A stretch of DNA of 40,826 nt from a virus. The translations under genes and the position numbers were made by a program. The DNA lies in the IMG/VR virus record IMGVR_UViG_3300005563_000018, positions 1 through 40,826 of that record, one strand, 5' to 3'. Position 1 is the stretch's first letter; each line of letters opens with the position of its first letter. Of this stretch, positions 7,625 to 40,826 are shown piece after piece. The notes below the pieces were generated by a model, which was not told the origin of the DNA, made no database searches, and saw only the letters and a program-made list of their open reading frames with translations.

Positions 7625-9904
7625 TTGGCATTCTCTTATTTAACACCGCAAAACATTTATCGGCACTACGAAAGTGCCAAACAATACACGCTTGAGCTCA
7701 CCCAGCCCTTCTGGGAGTTTGAGCGGATTGCTAGGAACCGCCCGCATGACGGTATCGACCCGGCATATCCTAAGACCACTGACGGTACGGCCGCCTCAAT
7801 CGTCCAAAAGACCCCAAAGCGGGTAGTCCAGCAACTGCCGACCGGCAAGATCAAGAGCGACCAGGGCAACGAGTGGCTCGACATAGTCGCCCAGTTTATC
7901 TTTACCAATAAAATCCTTCCTTACGCCAATGAGGACTATGGGCTGTTTGAGAAATCCCACCTGATGATCGAGGGCGGCCTAACTTACGGCTTCTCAGCTT
8001 CCTACACACCGTTTTTAAACCATGACGGGTACTTTTGTCCCGATATGACCATCCCCTACTGGGGAGATATTTTTATTCAAAAAGGCAAGAAGAGCGGTTA
8101 TTCCTGCTCTTATGTATTTCTTAGAAGTTGGTGGCAAAAAGCTGATTTAGAGGCTCTAATTGATTCCGAAACCAAACTGTCTAAGGATAAGGATTATGAG
8201 TCAACCTGGGACCTAGACGCCCTTAAAGACGTGCTTAAGGCCGAATCAGCCAAAGACCCCCAAGCCACCACGCCGCATGAGCGAGAGCGCTCGGCCGAAA
8301 CGACTGGGATTGAGCTGGTAACAGGCTTCCAAAAAGGCGTTAAATCCAAGTTCTACACCTTCAATGTCGCTACGCGCAAGATTGTGCGAACCAAGATAAA
8401 TAAAGACCCTAGAGGCAAGTTACCGATTGATTGGCTTTATGGCGATATAGACGGGGCCAACCCTCTTGGACGGGGGATTATCGAGCTTATCGGTGGCCTG
8501 CAGAACCTGATTGACTCTCAGCAGCAGATGTTTGAGTTCAACCGGGCGTTAGCACTGGCTCCTCCCGTAATTAAATATGGCAATATCGGTGACTTCTCAT
8601 ATTCACCTAATGCAGTTATAGAGGCTACCAACCCCGCCACGGATAAGGTCGAGCCACTGGTCATCGATACGACCGCGATCGCTAACTACCCGCAACTTTA
8701 TCAGCTTCACCAATCACAGATGTTTAATCTGGTAGCCCCCCAAAGTACTCAAATCGCCGCGGGAGAAGGAGCTATTACCCAAAGCAAAACCTCGGCCGGG
8801 GTCAACCAGCAAAACGCGGCCCTTTCCGTAGATGATAACGCTATTCGCAAGCGCTTTGAGTCCTGGTTCAGGAACTGGGCGGAAACCGCTGTCAACTTGT
8901 ATTTCGGCGAACGTACCGGCAAGGAAGAACTACAGCTGGATAAGGAAACTGCCCAGCGGCTCCGTGAACTGCCTGATTTTGACCAATCCCTGCTTTCCCC
9001 AGACAACAAGATACTAATTGATTACGACAGCGCCACGCCAGTCCTAAACTTCCACGTTGACCCCAACACTACCTCAGTAGCCGATAAGGCTCAGCAGGTC
9101 CAAGACGCCGTCCAGATACTCGATATCGTCATGAAATACCCAATGCTAAACGCCAGCTTCGGCGGTCCGATTGACGTTGATGTTCTGGCCCGAAGATTAG
9201 TTGTTAACTCCGGCATTGACGATCCGGAACAGGTTGCGCCCGAACCTACTGAAGCCCAGAAGAAATCCAAAGAACTGCAAAAACAACAGGTCAATCCGTT
9301 CTCACCAATGTTTGACAAACCATCTATTAGGATCGACTACGGAGACGTTGAAGATCCTCAGAGCCGGGCCAAATTACTTGAGTTGGCTGGCGCACCTCCT
9401 GCCGCTCCGTTGGCCCCAATGTCACCGCGCGTAGCCGAAAGCGCGGCTAAGGGCGTGGCAGCGATCGAACCCGAAGAAGCCGGCCAATCATCCCAACCAA
9501 CCGAAGCCCCGATTGATCTGGGCGATATCTACAAGGGTACAACCGACCCAATGGTTAAGGCCGAAATCGAAGGTATGGCCGGACTCCATCCCCGCCCAGC
9601 TCATGTCGCCGGTGAAGTTGTATCAAATACAACTGAACACGCGGCCAACGTCCTGAACAACTTAGGCCAAGCCAACCAGGTGCTTAATCCTCCGCAACCA
9701 CCGGCCCCAGAACCAGTTGAGGGCCAGCCAGCCCCTCCCCCGGCACCCCCAGCTCCACCGCGGCACAATCCCATAGATGAAAAGATGCGCGAAGTCTTAA
9801 AACGACTTGGCTTGTCTGATAACGCCATTGAACAAGCGATTGCCCAGCTGGATTCCGGCGCGTCACCGCAGCAAGTTCTACAAGGACTAGGAGTTAACCA
9901 ATGA
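7625..9904 (+). CDS. Portal protein
   Basis: A protein of 759 aa. Portal dodecamers form the DNA entry and exit ring of the head. The order (terminase, then this gene, then scaffold and capsid), the length, the family-like core (ELIGGLQNLIDSQQQMFEFNRALALAPP), and the long helical and Pro/Ala-rich C-terminal tail all fit a podovirus-type portal. The only available start is TTG 7625, with no Shine-Dalgarno sequence and a terminator-like hairpin directly upstream. Expression may depend on that leader. The end overlaps the next gene by ATGA. Confidence 0.85.
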   Translation: MAFSYLTPQNIYRHYESAKQYTLELTQPFWEFERIARNRPHDGIDPAYPKTTDGTAASIVQKTPKRVVQQLPTGKIKSDQGNEWLDIVAQFIFTNKILPYANEDYGLFEKSHLMIEGGLTYGFSASYTPFLNHDGYFCPDMTIPYWGDIFIQKGKKSGYSCSYVFLRSWWQKADLEALIDSETKLSKDKDYESTWDLDALKDVLKAESAKDPQATTPHERERSAETTGIELVTGFQKGVKSKFYTFNVATRKIVRTKINKDPRGKLPIDWLYGDIDGANPLGRGIIELIGGLQNLIDSQQQMFEFNRALALAPPVIKYGNIGDFSYSPNAVIEATNPATDKVEPLVIDTTAIANYPQLYQLHQSQMFNLVAPQSTQIAAGEGAITQSKTSAGVNQQNAALSVDDNAIRKRFESWFRNWAETAVNLYFGERTGKEELQLDKETAQRLRELPDFDQSLLSPDNKILIDYDSATPVLNFHVDPNTTSVADKAQQVQDAVQILDIVMKYPMLNASFGGPIDVDVLARRLVVNSGIDDPEQVAPEPTEAQKKSKELQKQQVNPFSPMFDKPSIRIDYGDVEDPQSRAKLLELAGAPPAAPLAPMSPRVAESAAKGVAAIEPEEAGQSSQPTEAPIDLGDIYKGTTDPMVKAEIEGMAGLHPRPAHVAGEVVSNTTEHAANVLNNLGQANQVLNPPQPPAPEPVEGQPAPPPAPPAPPRHNPIDEKMREVLKRLGLSDNAIEQAIAQLDSGASPQQVLQGLGVNQ

Positions 9905-34408: not shown

Positions 34409-34702
34409 CCCCTTCGTCCTATCGTACATAGACCACCCTCTTTAGCCTCCGATTAGCGTCCATCCAATACTTAGGTTTCATAACCTATCCCCCTTACGAA
34501 GAAAAGGCCGGTATCATAGTGTCTCACAGTCAATCACTACGATTTTACCCGGCCTTCCTCCCAAACTTAAGGCTCTCAACCTTAGGTTATCTATCTTAAT
34601 CTACTCAGATGAGCCTATCTGTTAAAATTATTACAATTTTAAATAGAGATTTTTCACTCTGATAGACTAATAACTAGAGGGACGCTCATCCCTCTCTCTT
34701 CT
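34409..34702. other. Intergenic region with several hairpins between convergent operons
   Basis: Contains no gene. Clear stems are AAGGCCGG/CCGGCCTT (34504-34511 with 34549-34556), TTAAAATT/AATTTTAA (34622-34629 with 34635-34642) and AGAGGGA/TCCCTCT near 34675-34694. The first, read leftward, ends in TTTTC and can act as a second terminator for integrase transcripts. The remaining sequence is AT-rich, with no clear open frame. Confidence 0.5.
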
Positions 34703-34738
34703 AAAAAGGCCGTCTATACACTACGGGGCGGCCTTTTT
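34703..34738. terminator. Bidirectional terminator between late operon and integrase
   Basis: AAAAAGGCCG (34703-34712) and CGGCCTTTTT (34729-34738) form a perfect 10-bp stem with A5 on one side and T5 on the other, so it works in both directions. It overlaps the last two bases of the integrase stop codon and separates rightward gene transcription from the leftward integrase gene. Confidence 0.85.
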
Positions 34739-35609
34739 ATATGCTGTGGTGGCGTTCGTAAACCGCCCTTAAATCCTCATCCACCACCTGGGTATACATC
34801 TGGGTGGTCTGCAGGGATGAATGGCCTAAAAGAGCCTGGACGTAGCGCATATTGGCATTGTTTCTTAGTAGGTCGGTAGCGAAAGAGTGGCGCAGTGAGT
34901 GGGGATGGACCGGCTTATTTAAACCGGCCTTTTTCCAGCCGGCGTTCATCATTTTTTGGACTCCGTCCGGCCGGATGCGGGAACGGGTCTGGTTGGCTAA
35001 AAACAGCGCCGGGTTATCATCTCGCCTAAAACTGAGATATTGTCGCAATAACTCCTCAGTTCGTAAGTCAATGAAGCACAGCCTGACCTTGCCACCCTTA
35101 CCGACTACGGTGAAAGTCCGCTCATAAATCGAATTGCGGTTCAGCGAACACAATTCTCCAATTCTAATACCTGAGGCATATAACATGGAGATTACGCACA
35201 TATTCCTGATCCGGTTGGCGTCCGGATAACCTCTTTGCTTCTTACCGACAGCCTTAATCAGCTTGTCGACCTCTTCCGGGGTAATGAAAGTCGGGATGGT
35301 GTTGATGCGCGGCGGCAACGGGATAGATTCAGGGTCAAGACAGACCATTCCCTGGCGGCGCAAGTAGGCTAAGACCACCCTGAGCTTATTCAGATAACCC
35401 CTGATAGTGTTCTGGGACAGGCCTTTCTTCTCCAAACACTGTTTCCAGTCCCTAACCTGGATAAAGGAAAGCTCCTCAATAGCAATATCGCCCAAAAACA
35501 AGACTAGTGAGTTGAGAGCTACGAAGTGATGCTCTTCGGTTTTAGAGGATTGGTTTCTAAAAGCAATAACATCAATAGCGTAAGCTCTAAAGGCTTCGCT
35601 TAAGCGCAT
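34737..35609 (-). CDS. int: Tyrosine site-specific recombinase (integrase)
   Basis: A protein of 290 aa. Residues 1-100 form an N-terminal SAM-like core-binding domain. The catalytic domain has R149 (SGIRIGEL), K174 (GKGGKVR), H237-x-x-R240 (HPHSLRHSFAT), H263 (LLGHSS) and Y272 (QMYTQV), the complete set. It closely resembles XerC/D-size recombinases. It is leftward, with the attP core about 860 bp upstream, and has its own promoter. It should integrate the phage at a tRNA-Gly(GCC) gene. Confidence 0.92.
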   Translation of the reverse strand: MRLSEAFRAYAIDVIAFRNQSSKTEEHHFVALNSLVLFLGDIAIEELSFIQVRDWKQCLEKKGLSQNTIRGYLNKLRVVLAYLRRQGMVCLDPESIPLPPRINTIPTFITPEEVDKLIKAVGKKQRGYPDANRIRNMCVISMLYASGIRIGELCSLNRNSIYERTFTVVGKGGKVRLCFIDLRTEELLRQYLSFRRDDNPALFLANQTRSRIRPDGVQKMMNAGWKKAGLNKPVHPHSLRHSFATDLLRNNANMRYVQALLGHSSLQTTQMYTQVVDEDLRAVYERHHSI

Positions 35610-35849: not shown

Positions 35850-36250
35850 AACATGCAGAGGAACTTGTCGTCATTAATCACCGAAAAAGGAGTTTGTAGT
35901 CTTATTAAAAAACAGCTACTAAGAAGTATCTTATTGTATTATTTCGATACTCTCCCAACGGATACCCTAACGAGGAACCCTTTATCTTTTTCTTACCCTT
36001 CCTTAGTATCACTTCTAGCCCTCATATACGGAGCGTGGCGGGCAACTACTAGAGGTGTTGCCAGTTCCTTCCGTATAAGAAGTGAATCTTAAGTTTTCAG
36101 TTAATTGTTATGTGTATGAGAGAGGAAGCCGCTATTTAGAGAGTGGTTACTCCGGGTCGCTATTAAAATGCCCTACGCCACCGCATACTTCCTCACAACT
36201 ACACACAACTATCGGCTATTAACTTTAGCCGCTATTTATAAGTTTTTAAG
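35850..36250. other. Non-coding structured lysogeny region
   Basis: No gene is supported. A nested stem-loop at 36010-36084 has three helices: CACTTC/GAAGTG, TATACGG/CCGTATA and GGCAAC/GTTGCC. GAGGAAG/CTTCCTC (36122-36128 with 36188-36194) and CGGCTA/TAGCCG (36213-36231) follow. Four copies of GCTATTWA lie at 36131, 36159, 36215 and 36231. Possible roles are integrase or excisionase arm sites, or a regulatory RNA. Confidence 0.45.
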
Positions 36251-36283
36251 ATAGAGAAATGCAAAATGGGCCTTCCTCTTCGG

Positions 36284-36307
36284 GAAAGCCCCAGCATTTA
36301 GCGTTGT
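36284..36307. repeat. Left copy of 24-bp repeat flanking the attP core
   Basis: 24 bases reading GAAAGC-xx-CAGCATTTAGCG-TTGT match 36562-36585 at 22 positions. Together they bracket the promoter, tRNA-derived core and terminator. Such paired repeats around a core are typical of integrase arm-type sites. This is an inference. Confidence 0.5.
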
Positions 36308-36374
36308 AAGCCCAATTATACACAGGCGTAACAGATTAAGCAATAGTTTTGACAAAAAAGTAAGCAGAAAGGTC

Positions 36375-36403
36375 TTGTATTGCCCGTGTAGTTATGCTAG
36401 TAT
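36375..36403 (+). promoter_or_regulatory. Rightward promoter reading into the attP core
   Basis: TTGTAT (36375-36380), a 17-base spacer, then TAGTAT (36398-36403) with a TGC extended -10. The start is near 36410. The motif ATTGCCCGTGT (36379-36389) overlaps the -35 end and spacer. The transcript would carry an AACTTATC/GATAAGTT stem-loop (36421-36449), then the tRNA half, then end at the terminator 36529-36557. Confidence 0.6.
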
Positions 36404-36467
36404 TGATTTAGTTCATTCACAACTTATCAGCGCTCACAGATGATAAGTTATCTCTTTGAACGGTGCG

Positions 36468-36515
36468 TCCTTGCCAAGGAAGAGGTCGAGAGTTAGAGTC
36501 TCTTAACCCGCACCA
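36468..36515 (+). other. attP: attP core: 3' half of tRNA-Gly(GCC)
   Basis: These 48 bases match nucleotides 29-76 of a tRNA position by position. They give the anticodon loop TTGCCAA (36471-36477), 3' anticodon stem GGAAG, five-base variable loop AGGTC, T stem GAGAG/CTCTT around loop TTAGAGT, acceptor strand AACCCGC, discriminator A and CCA. The 5' half is absent. With a tyrosine recombinase nearby, this is the expected form of an attachment site that restores the tRNA after insertion. The T loop has A where C56 is nearly invariant. Confidence 0.85.
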
Positions 36516-36528
36516 TTTATAAGAAGGT

Positions 36529-36557
36529 AACCGTCTGTGGTAAACAGGCGGTTTTTT
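36529..36557 (+). terminator. Rho-independent terminator after the attP core
   Basis: AACCGTCTGT (36529-36538) pairs with ACAGGCGGTT (36544-36553), 10 bp with one G-U, loop GGTAA, followed by a run of six T. In the integrated state it would end transcription of the rebuilt tRNA gene; in the free phage it ends the short RNA from the promoter at 36375. Confidence 0.85.
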
Positions 36558-36561
36558 AATG

Positions 36562-36585
36562 GAAAGCAACAGCATTTAGCGTTGT
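36562..36585. repeat. Right copy of 24-bp repeat flanking the attP core
   Basis: Matches 36284-36307 at 22 of 24 bases. This copy also forms part of a hairpin, GGAAAGCAACA with TGTTGTTTTCC (36561-36593), with the repeat core in the loop. It is a probable arm-type site or transcript element. Confidence 0.5.
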
Positions 36586-36686
36586 TGTTTTCCCCGGAGG
36601 AACCGGCTTTCGAATCCCAGCATTGTTGCGGGATCAGCGACAGGTTTCACCTATAGCAGATAGAGTTCTGCCGAAGTGTTACAGAG

Positions 36687-37232
36687 ATGGCACTCTTTAA
36701 AATGCCGAATTTAAACAAGGAGATTGGCCTTATCAAGCAATTGGTAAGACTAGCTTTGCTAGTGCTGCTCACAGTAGTACTAAGCGGAGTGACTCCGGCG
36801 CACATTAAGAACTTTCCGCCCCAGCACAAGGTCAAAGCTTTGTCGGCGGAAAAAGTGCCAACTGAGAAACCAGAGCAACCGCAAGCGGTTGTGGCGACTC
36901 AGGCGGAGACGGTAGCTGCTCCCGTAGCAGCGCCGGCACCAGTGACCGACCCGCATGAATACGCGGCCTCGGTACTCGACCCCGTTCAGTACGGCTGCTT
37001 AGTTAGCCTGTGGAACGGCGAGTCGGGATGGCGGGTAGGTGCCTATAACCCTTCGGGGGCTTATGGCATACCCCAAAGCTTGCCAGCTTCAAAGATGGCG
37101 GCTTTCGGCTCAGATTACCTGACCAACCCGATCACCCAGGTCAAGTGGGGCTTGGATTACATAGCTCGCAGTTATGGGACCCCTTGCAATGCTTACAATA
37201 CCTGGCTGTCGAGATACCCACACTGGTATTAA
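36687..37232 (+). CDS. Membrane-anchored lysozyme/transglycosylase-like protein
   Basis: A protein of 181 aa. A hydrophobic N-terminal segment (about 16-36, IKQLVRLALLVLLTVVLSGV) is followed by a Pro/Ala/Glu linker to about residue 90. A lysozyme-like domain (LVSLWNGESGWRVGAYNPSGAYGIPQSLP, then QVKWGLDYIARSYGTPCNAY) has catalytic Glu112 and the GIPQ/WGLxYI signature of actinobacterial-type transglycosylases. Being outside the lysis cassette and next to attP, it may be expressed from the prophage or used for DNA entry. The upstream terminator leaves its promoter unclear. Confidence 0.8.
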   Translation: MALFKMPNLNKEIGLIKQLVRLALLVLLTVVLSGVTPAHIKNFPPQHKVKALSAEKVPTEKPEQPQAVVATQAETVAAPVAAPAPVTDPHEYAASVLDPVQYGCLVSLWNGESGWRVGAYNPSGAYGIPQSLPASKMAAFGSDYLTNPITQVKWGLDYIARSYGTPCNAYNTWLSRYPHWY

Positions 37233-37590
37233 ACCGTAGGGCGTAGTAGTGAGGGAAAAAGAGCCGTTCAAGTTGAGTGATACACCGCTCAGCGATGAGG
37301 AAAGTAAGCGTAGCTCTCGGCGACATCTAAGTGTATCGGATAATCGCCCCCTCTCTCATACGCCCTACCTCAAACATCCGGGCAGACTTCGGACTCTATG
37401 TAAATTGCGGGATTGTCCGAAGCCCACCTGGGCCGGTTGAGGCCCGCACCTTTGTTATGGCGGCAAGCCCCTCTTCATTCATTAGGGTCCATACACTTGC
37501 CGCCCCAGAATTGGTTTTTAAGTTTTAAAAGCCAGCCCTGGGGGTGAATGCCACATTGATGGCCAGCGCTACAAAGCCGGTAGCCCCCAG
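37233..37590 (+). ncRNA. Large structured RNA region C (about 360 nt)
   Basis: At least six perfect or near-perfect helices are present. GTAGGGCGTA/TACGCCCTAC (37236-37245 with 37359-37368, 10 bp) encloses GAGGG/CCCTC and GATACAC/GTGTATC (37279-37285 with 37331-37337). Further stems are CTTCGGA/TCCGAAG (37387-37393 with 37416-37422), GGGCC/GGCCC (37430-37445), GGCGGCAAG/CTTGCCGCC (37459-37467 with 37496-37504) and CTGGGGG/CCCCCAG (37538-37544 with 37584-37590). The region ends just before the ribosome-binding site of the next gene. It is too structured to be ordinary spacer. I could not match it by eye to RNase P, tmRNA, GOLLD/ROOL or intron cores. Confidence 0.65.
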
Positions 37591-37613
37591 CCAATAAGTA
37601 ATAGGAGAGAAAA

Positions 37614-37778
37614 ATGAGCGTGAGCACAGAGGATTTTATTGAAAAAGCGGTCCGAGAAACCGAAATCGCGACGATCAGCTACGTTATTAAGCTGCTGGAT
37701 AAGTACCCGGCCGAGATGGTCAAGAACAGCCTTAGGGATTACGTCCGCGAACTGCGGGAAGGTTTGAGCCATGACTAA
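37614..37778 (+). CDS. Small helical protein (54 aa)
   Basis: ATG 37614 is preceded by AGGAGAG. The product, MSVSTEDFIEKAVRETEIATI..., is acidic/basic and helical. It overlaps the next gene by 8 bases, so it is translationally coupled to the recombination-type gene. It may be a partner of that protein; this is by position only. Confidence 0.6.
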   Translation: MSVSTEDFIEKAVRETEIATISYVIKLLDKYPAEMVKNSLRDYVRELREGLSHD

Positions 37779-40489: not shown

Positions 40490-40826
40490 AAAAGTGAAAA
40501 TCCAGATAACTAGCTGGTTAAACGGTTCGGTACTGTTCGAATATGAATCCGTAGACAATACGATAGCCAAAACTCTGGAGAAGGCGGTTAGTAAAGATGC
40601 CGACCTACGCTATGCCAACCTAAGCTATGCCAACCTAAGCTCTGCCAACCTAAGCTATGCCGACCTACGCTATGCCGACCTACGCTATGCCAACCTAAGC
40701 TATGCCAACCTACGCTATGCCGACCTACGCTATGCCAACCTAAGCTCTGCCAACCTAAGCTATGCCGACCTACGCTATGCCGACCTACGCTATGCCAACC
40801 TAAGCTATGCCAACCTACGCTATGCC
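40482..40826 (+). CDS. Pentapeptide-repeat protein, N-terminal part (gene crosses the window ends)
   Basis: It starts at GTG 40482 with GGAG eight bases upstream. Residues 1-39 form the small N-terminal domain (KVKIQITSWLNGSVLFEYES, DNTIAKTLEKAV) that often precedes pentapeptide arrays in phages. Residues 40-115 are 15 pentapeptides of DLRYA, NLSYA, NLSSA and NLRYA types. The frame is open at the window end and continues at base 81 after the overlap is removed. Confidence 0.85.
   Translation, partial: MSKKVKIQITSWLNGSVLFEYESVDNTIAKTLEKAVSKDADLRYANLSYANLSSANLSYADLRYADLRYANLSYANLRYADLRYANLSSANLSYADLRYADLRYANLSYANLRYA
40642..40826 (+). repeat. 105-nt higher-order tandem repeat in the pentapeptide array
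   Basis: Bases 40642-40721 recur at 40747-40826, 105 nt (seven pentapeptides) apart, and again at 1-80. Assemblers fail in such arrays, so the true copy number of the 105-nt unit, and hence the protein length, is uncertain. The right end of the window falls inside this array. Confidence 0.8.

Follow-up and report, generated by a model that had tools for sequence, protein, structure and literature searches.

A clamp-shaped RNA with a conserved internal loop recurs in several phage genomes

Introduction

Does the stretch of roughly 360 nucleotides that follows the lysozyme-like gene of a temperate tailed phage form one large noncoding RNA, or is the structured unit smaller? The DNA analysed here, called the window, is the 40,826-nucleotide IMG/VR record IMGVR_UViG_3300005563_000018, in which a terminase, a major head protein, an endolysin and a tyrosine integrase are recognizable. 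An earlier note, made by reading the sequence, proposed that positions 37233-37590 hold an undescribed phage RNA of the large ornate kind. Known RNAs of this kind include GOLLD, ROOL and OLE, whose roles are unknown and which carry kissing loops; GOLLD and ROOL come from phages or prophages (PMC12286853). Our analyses indicate that the observation is sound and that the unit was mis-sized. The coordinates of all major features are collected in Table 1.

A compact structured unit downstream of the lysozyme-like gene

Two helices singled out by the earlier note, one of 10 base pairs (37236-37245/37359-37368) and one of 9 base pairs (37459-37467/37496-37504), are both present and perfect. The note had seen no credible gene here, and positions 37233-37610 indeed have stop codons in each of the six frames and lack a convincing gene. 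Folded as a whole, positions 37200-37620 yield z-scores of -4.49 on the plus strand and -2.89 on the minus strand, better than 100 of 100 dinucleotide-shuffled sequences on both. The significant unit, however, is not a single RNA of about 360 nucleotides but its first 133 nucleotides (37236-37368, plus strand; z -5.7), here called copy A. For the first 135 nucleotides of the region, the centroid and minimum free energy structures are identical (z -5.72, plus strand). The assertion that stem density lies far above that of ordinary intergenic DNA holds for this 5ʹ domain but fails for the remaining 227 nucleotides, whose structure is marginal (8 of 200 shuffles of 37374-37600 fold equally well on the plus strand). 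When scored in 120-nucleotide segments, the best value in the reported region is approximately -2.7, compared with -4.9 to -6.1 at positions 36421-36660, and the region is not outstanding relative to the remainder of the phage.

Covariance-model searches against Rfam, a check that the earlier note had suggested, produced no match in the window at the gathering score of any Rfam 15 family, including ornate RNAs and riboswitches, and yielded only sub-threshold chance matches with E-values up to 10. The structured RNA in this region of the phage thus matches no Rfam family, in agreement with the original reading by eye. A string resembling part of RNase P (GAGGAAAGU, 37297-37305) is a coincidence, as no further part of RNase P and no Rfam match accompany it.

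Copy A is built around a symmetric internal loop of five nucleotides on each side (GUAGU/UCUCA). Its interior includes two hairpin loops, L2 and L3, which belong to an 8-nucleotide complementarity (37278-37285/37331-37338) and are predicted to form a kissing loop. This match is no more than suggestive, given our estimate that two loops of this size would match so by Watson-Crick pairing alone in about one case in a thousand. An interaction of the L2/L3 type was not recognized in copies other than A.

No homologue was found for the remainder of the reported region (37374-37600). A model in which the full 360 nucleotides operate as a single RNA with a 3ʹ switch, based on the alternative pairings of CUGGGGG, was dropped because it had neither significance nor homologues.

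Table 1. Positions of RNA features and neighbouring genes, numbered along the window unless another locus is named
Feature	Position	Strand	Description
Tyrosine integrase	34737-35609	-	Downstream of copy B, same direction; Pfam Phage_integrase E 6e-35
Copy B	36107-36209	-	Integrase direction; covariance-model match and fold
Copy B outer helix	36209-36200/36116-36107	-	
Copy B internal loop	36199-36195/36121-36117	-	GUUGU/UCUCA
Copy B inner helix	36194-36187/36129-36122	-	
Lysozyme-like gene	36687-37232	+	SLT transglycosylase domain and a hydrophobic segment at the N terminus; immediately upstream of copy A
Copy A	37236-37368	+	Clamp-shaped RNA, 4 nt past stop codon of lysozyme-like gene; z -5.72
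Copy A outer helix, 5ʹ arm	37236-37245	+	GUAGGGCGUA; partner 37359-37368
Copy A internal loop, 5ʹ side	37246-37250	+	GUAGU; invariant or near-invariant in all copies
Copy A inner helix, 5ʹ arm	37251-37255	+	GAGGG; partner 37349-37353
Copy A variable interior	37256-37348	+	Two hairpin arms, 37260-37317 and 37319-37348
Copy A loop L2	37280-37285	+	AUACAC; complementary throughout to GUGUAU in L3
Copy A loop L3	37331-37336	+	GUGUAU, within L3; partner of L2
Copy A inner helix, 3ʹ arm	37349-37353	+	CCCUC
Copy A internal loop, 3ʹ side	37354-37358	+	UCUCA; conserved
Copy A outer helix, 3ʹ arm	37359-37368	+	UACGCCCUAC
Remainder of reported region	37374-37600	+	Marginally structured; z -2.10
Hairpins in remainder	37387-37394/37415-37422; 37459-37467/37496-37504; 37511-37521/37525-37535	+	
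Alternative pairing in remainder	37538-37544	+	CUGGGGG; can pair with CCCCAG 37503-37508 or CCCCCAG 37584-37590
Small ORF	37614-37778	+	First ORF downstream of copy A; opens block of same-strand small genes
Alleles in G037	L159 1-1500; L160 16426-17970		Within one contig

A second copy in the same phage and further copies in others

A covariance model built on copy A alone was used to search the same phage and matched positions 36210-36106 (E 9e-4). This second representative, copy B, resides approximately 1.1 kb from copy A on the opposite strand, outside the region described in the earlier note. Without any mismatch, each half of the motif is found just twice in the 40.8-kb window, in copy A and in copy B. 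Between A and B, all ten pairs of the outer helix are kept through three double changes and one single change, the inner helix carries one further double change, and the internal loops are identical except for the central A or U.

Pattern and descriptor scans revealed further copies in three IMG/VR phages, designated L137, L150 (two copies, L150a and L150b) and L153. The pattern scans specified the loop together with the first inner pairs and the two or three outer pairs adjacent to it, and left the spacing free. In L137, L150a and L153, the remaining seven or eight outer pairs, which the pattern did not constrain, all form, and this pairing is therefore independent of how the copies were found. 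L153 was the sole true copy recovered by a differently shaped pattern scan, whose other matches were rejected because their outer arms are unpaired over the required length. The same defect eliminated the pattern matches L135/L136, L138, L139-L149, L151, L152, L154 and L155, and a descriptor match, L105, was taken as chance. Copy L150b, with the inner helix GCUAG/CUAGC, was spotted in the sequence once the loop was known and was then confirmed with the descriptor. A looser variant with the loop GCUGU/UCACA, L134, was found with a descriptor that requires pairing; it resides in a phage-like contig (40 kb, 52.5% G+C) that is filed in an Arthrobacter cavernae assembly. A noncoding stretch of about 1 kb at L134 3600-4545, which precedes a WhiB gene, contains additional large imperfect palindromes.

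The contig of the L150 phage (G037) also carries, at L160 15264-15408 on the plus strand, a structure with the loop GUCGU/ACACA, a 13-bp outer helix and an 8-bp inner helix. It follows immediately after a lysozyme gene and is antisense to that gene and its neighbours. This RNA is possibly an eighth, looser member of the family, and it is kept apart from the seven copies analysed below.

The carriers are not close relatives in gene content. The window phage and the L150 phage have integrases of approximately 50% identity and some other proteins in common, the other carriers have only scattered proteins in common, and not one protein family occurs in every carrier. The L137, L150 and L153 loci yield no Rfam match at E-values of 1 or below. 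Blastn searches with the reported region returned no homologue among 50,697 phage records or 32 relatives with the same terminase, and searches with copy B or with the regions from other carriers returned nothing or stray short matches. Relatives of the lysozyme-like protein are mostly tape-measure proteins whose loci have no such RNA, two relatives of the 37771 protein (L072 and L073) are likewise without the element, and integrase peptide patterns retrieved no relatives in IMG/VR. The exact pattern has no match in 396 Actinomycetota genomes, a result that carries little weight because the host may belong to another clade. A covariance search across genomes missed even the L137 copy, and so its empty results were not counted.

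Conserved architecture and covariation

The copies share a clamp architecture that consists of an outer helix of 9-11 base pairs, an internal loop with GUWGU on the 5ʹ side and UCUCA on the 3ʹ side, an inner helix of 5-10 base pairs and a variable interior. The internal loop is the best-conserved part of the element and adjoins GUA/UAC of the outer helix. Conservation lies beside the loop, whereas the outermost aligned pair can be GC, UA, AU or CG. Total clamp length ranges from 103 to 196 nucleotides, of which only about 40, in the two arms, are conserved. The description of this RNA as large and ornate is therefore not supported: GOLLD, ROOL and OLE each exhibit hundreds of nucleotides of extensively conserved structure, whereas only the two arms are conserved here.

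Covariation was evaluated in a 40-column alignment of the arms from the seven copies, which are few in number and include two (A and B) from one genome. In this alignment, 99.0% of helix cells pair, and nine of the 15 pairs change on both sides (five of ten in the outer helix and four of five in the inner helix), with 22 cells carrying double changes. The covariation score is 0.676, compared with 0.203 in shuffled alignments, and none of 500 shuffles reaches any of the five measures used. If the partner strand is slid by one to three columns, pairing falls to 31-60%. Because the alignment contains five G·U pairs and no A·C mismatches, the strand that folds is fixed. The searches that yielded copies B, L150b and L134 already took pairing into account, which should be considered when these values are read.

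The specificity of the motif was assessed with a strict descriptor (outer helix of at least nine pairs, inner helix of at least five) that was scanned over 565 kb of carriers and relatives. It produced six matches, compared with none in ten dinucleotide shuffles, and 60 random loop sequences substituted into the descriptor gave no matches on the real DNA. The earlier note had proposed a search for homologues in phages and a covariation analysis; homologues exist and the covariation is strong. We consider it very highly probable that the element is real and represents a previously unlisted RNA family of phages.

The interiors, in contrast with the clamp, span 53-148 nucleotides without common sequence. 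Their folding z-score is -2.1 in copy A and near zero in most others, where folding does not exceed chance. Two alleles of one integrase leader in the L150 phage have flanks that are 98-100% identical, yet the RNA interiors have been replaced. Because the interiors differ and are mostly unstructured, the conserved entity is the clamp with its loop rather than a large fold. The first of these alleles (L159) contains further long stems, for example at 282-406 and 408-527.

Position relative to genes and promoters

All seven copies are in the sense orientation relative to neighbouring genes and are located in leaders or between genes. In the window, copy A is situated after the lysozyme-like gene (Pfam SLT, E 1.8e-4; phrog_12661 transglycosylase, E 1e-33) and before a block of small genes, whose first ORF has no match in Pfam or PHROG searches, and copy B is oriented towards the integrase. 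The nearest downstream ORFs begin about 245 nucleotides from A and about 230 nucleotides from B. Promoters in the window, at about 36325-36405, were read by eye and fall below the threshold of the promoter scan.

The arrangement is more compact in L137, where a TTGACA-17-TAATAT promoter ends at 7785, the element occupies 7812-7923 and the start codon lies at 7937. This copy begins about 20 nucleotides after the expected transcription start and ends 13 nucleotides before the start codon. In L153, the element follows a 66-aa ORF and ends 4 nucleotides before the start codon of another ORF on the same strand; it is preceded by promoter-like sites with 11 of 12 and 10 of 12 matches. L150 carries divergent promoter-like sites, TTGACA-17-TATACT on the minus strand and TTGAAC-17-TATTAT on the plus strand, and both strict copies reside in the leader towards the integrase, which is about 1 kb away. 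Distances from the promoter and to the next gene vary widely among copies, the downstream genes are unrelated to each other, and terminator scans found no strong terminator just downstream of the copies.

Possible functions of the element

The placement in leaders and between genes favours a cis-acting mRNA element over a free-standing ornate RNA, and the element probably acts in cis on the phage mRNA. The internal loop would then serve as a docking site for a factor encoded by the host, given that the carriers do not all share any one protein family. A short loop that is kept across phages with almost no proteins in common points to a conserved host target.

The most likely specific role, which we favour tentatively and by analogy, is antitermination in the manner of put. 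Phage HK022 carries two putRNAs that resemble each other, downstream of PL and of PR; they act on RNA polymerase without help from a phage protein, and one copy may lie hundreds of nucleotides from its promoter (PMC9378689). By a similar mechanism, the nascent clamp would bind elongating RNA polymerase or its cofactors, and the bound polymerase would be carried through pauses or terminators in early and integrase operons. The likeness to putL and putR may extend to the occurrence of two similar RNA elements per phage on divergent early operons: copies A and B lie on the plus and minus strands, respectively, with window promoters recognized by eye, whereas both L150 copies are on one side. HK022 put, which binds the β' zinc-binding domain of RNA polymerase and suppresses termination, is about 70 nucleotides long and comprises two adjacent stem-loops with a triplex, whereas the element described here is a clamp of 103-196 nucleotides with a single closing stem, a conserved 5x5 loop and a variable interior. 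The parallel may therefore illustrate how the element works, not membership in put.

Few RNA elements are known that direct transcription or processing independently of phage proteins, and HK022 put is the worked-out case. It is conceivable, if rather doubtful, that the clamps are a new class of such elements, by which diverse temperate phages control elongation of early and integrase transcripts through a fixed loop that a conserved component of the host (the ribosome, RNA polymerase or a Nus factor) recognizes, with the interior left free. The descriptor GUWGU/UCUCA between two helices offers a tool for searching more phages, and the loop presents a compact target for mutation.

A processing or stability stem fits the anatomy of the element nearly as well as the put-like role, although we judge it unlikely overall. 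RNase III or a different nuclease of the host would cleave at the 15-20 paired bases, the internal loop would limit or place the cut, and the interior would be either irrelevant or a released RNA. The RNase III stems of phage T7 early RNA, lambda sib and the rRNA precursor are long and interrupted, lie in leaders or at gene borders and occur several times per genome. The clamps resemble them in each respect, with a stem of about two helical turns that is broken by a loop, more than one copy in a genome, positions at leaders and gene borders, a non-conserved interior and no need of a phage protein. However, the internal loop is the best-conserved part of the clamp, and RNase III sites are not known to be marked by a single internal loop that is strictly conserved between distant phages.

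Control of the next gene by a riboswitch, another ligand-sensing leader or a translational leader would account for the L137 and L153 copies, which end within 4-13 nucleotides of a start codon, and for the two-arm junction with a predicted kissing loop in the interior of copy A. This explanation is improbable, given the long distances to the next ORFs in the window (about 245 and 230 nucleotides) and to the L150 integrase (about 1 kb), the unrelated downstream genes, and interiors that offer no conserved pocket.

The wholly different interiors, which differ even between the two near-identically flanked alleles, could instead be viewed as the changing payload of a trans-acting small RNA (a regulator, decoy or counter-defence RNA) that is cut from the leader and protected by the clamp as its closing stem. 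We regard this as quite improbable, because the interiors mostly lack structure beyond chance, the elements are not followed by any dedicated terminator that the scans could find, and a sense position within operons requires no free RNA.

An imperfect palindrome could also function at the DNA level, as a folded single strand used in recombination or replication. Integron attC sites have such a plan, in which two boxes pair, a spacer stays unpaired and the terminal part varies; copies A and B are both no more than about 1 kb away from the integrase and an attP-like tRNA half, and the wobble asymmetry fails to separate RNA from single-stranded DNA. The constant outer boxes of attC sites are RYYYAAC and GTTRRRY, whereas the outermost letters of the clamp vary freely and no integron is present. 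Moreover, the L137 copy fills a 5ʹ untranslated region, the L153 copy separates two same-strand ORFs, and seven of seven copies are sense to transcription, which a DNA site would not need. A DNA-level role is thus highly improbable.

Finally, chance palindromes picked out by the searches are scarcely credible: the copies are few, L150b was recognized after the loop was known and the L134 descriptor requires pairing, but for three copies the search pattern placed no constraint on most of the outer helix, two copies occur together in one genome, both descriptor controls gave zero, and the covariation shuffles contradict this explanation.

Other features near the putative attachment site

Window positions 36462-36516 (TGCGTCCTTGCCAAGGA...CCCGCACCA) resemble, by eye, the 3ʹ half of the gene for tRNA-Gly(GCC); ARAGORN found no tRNA. 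The tRNA-like half is probably the attP core. Its best match in the Arthrobacter assembly is 82% over 34 nucleotides, and therefore Arthrobacter is probably not the host. Two 25-nucleotide direct repeats that are 92% identical (36283-36307 and 36561-36585) flank the site and are possible integrase arm sites. The adjoining stretch 36421-36660 is the most structured nearby on the plus strand, and a good terminator-like hairpin lies at 36529-36553; a promoter read by eye near 36377-36405 could possibly give rise to a short terminated RNA from this stretch. Beside the integrase, the noncoding positions 34441-34740 have strong predicted structure on either strand (z to -6.4). Another contig, G001, which encodes identical proteins, joins window positions 40826 and 1 through about 425 extra bases, and the phage genome is therefore circular or circularly permuted.
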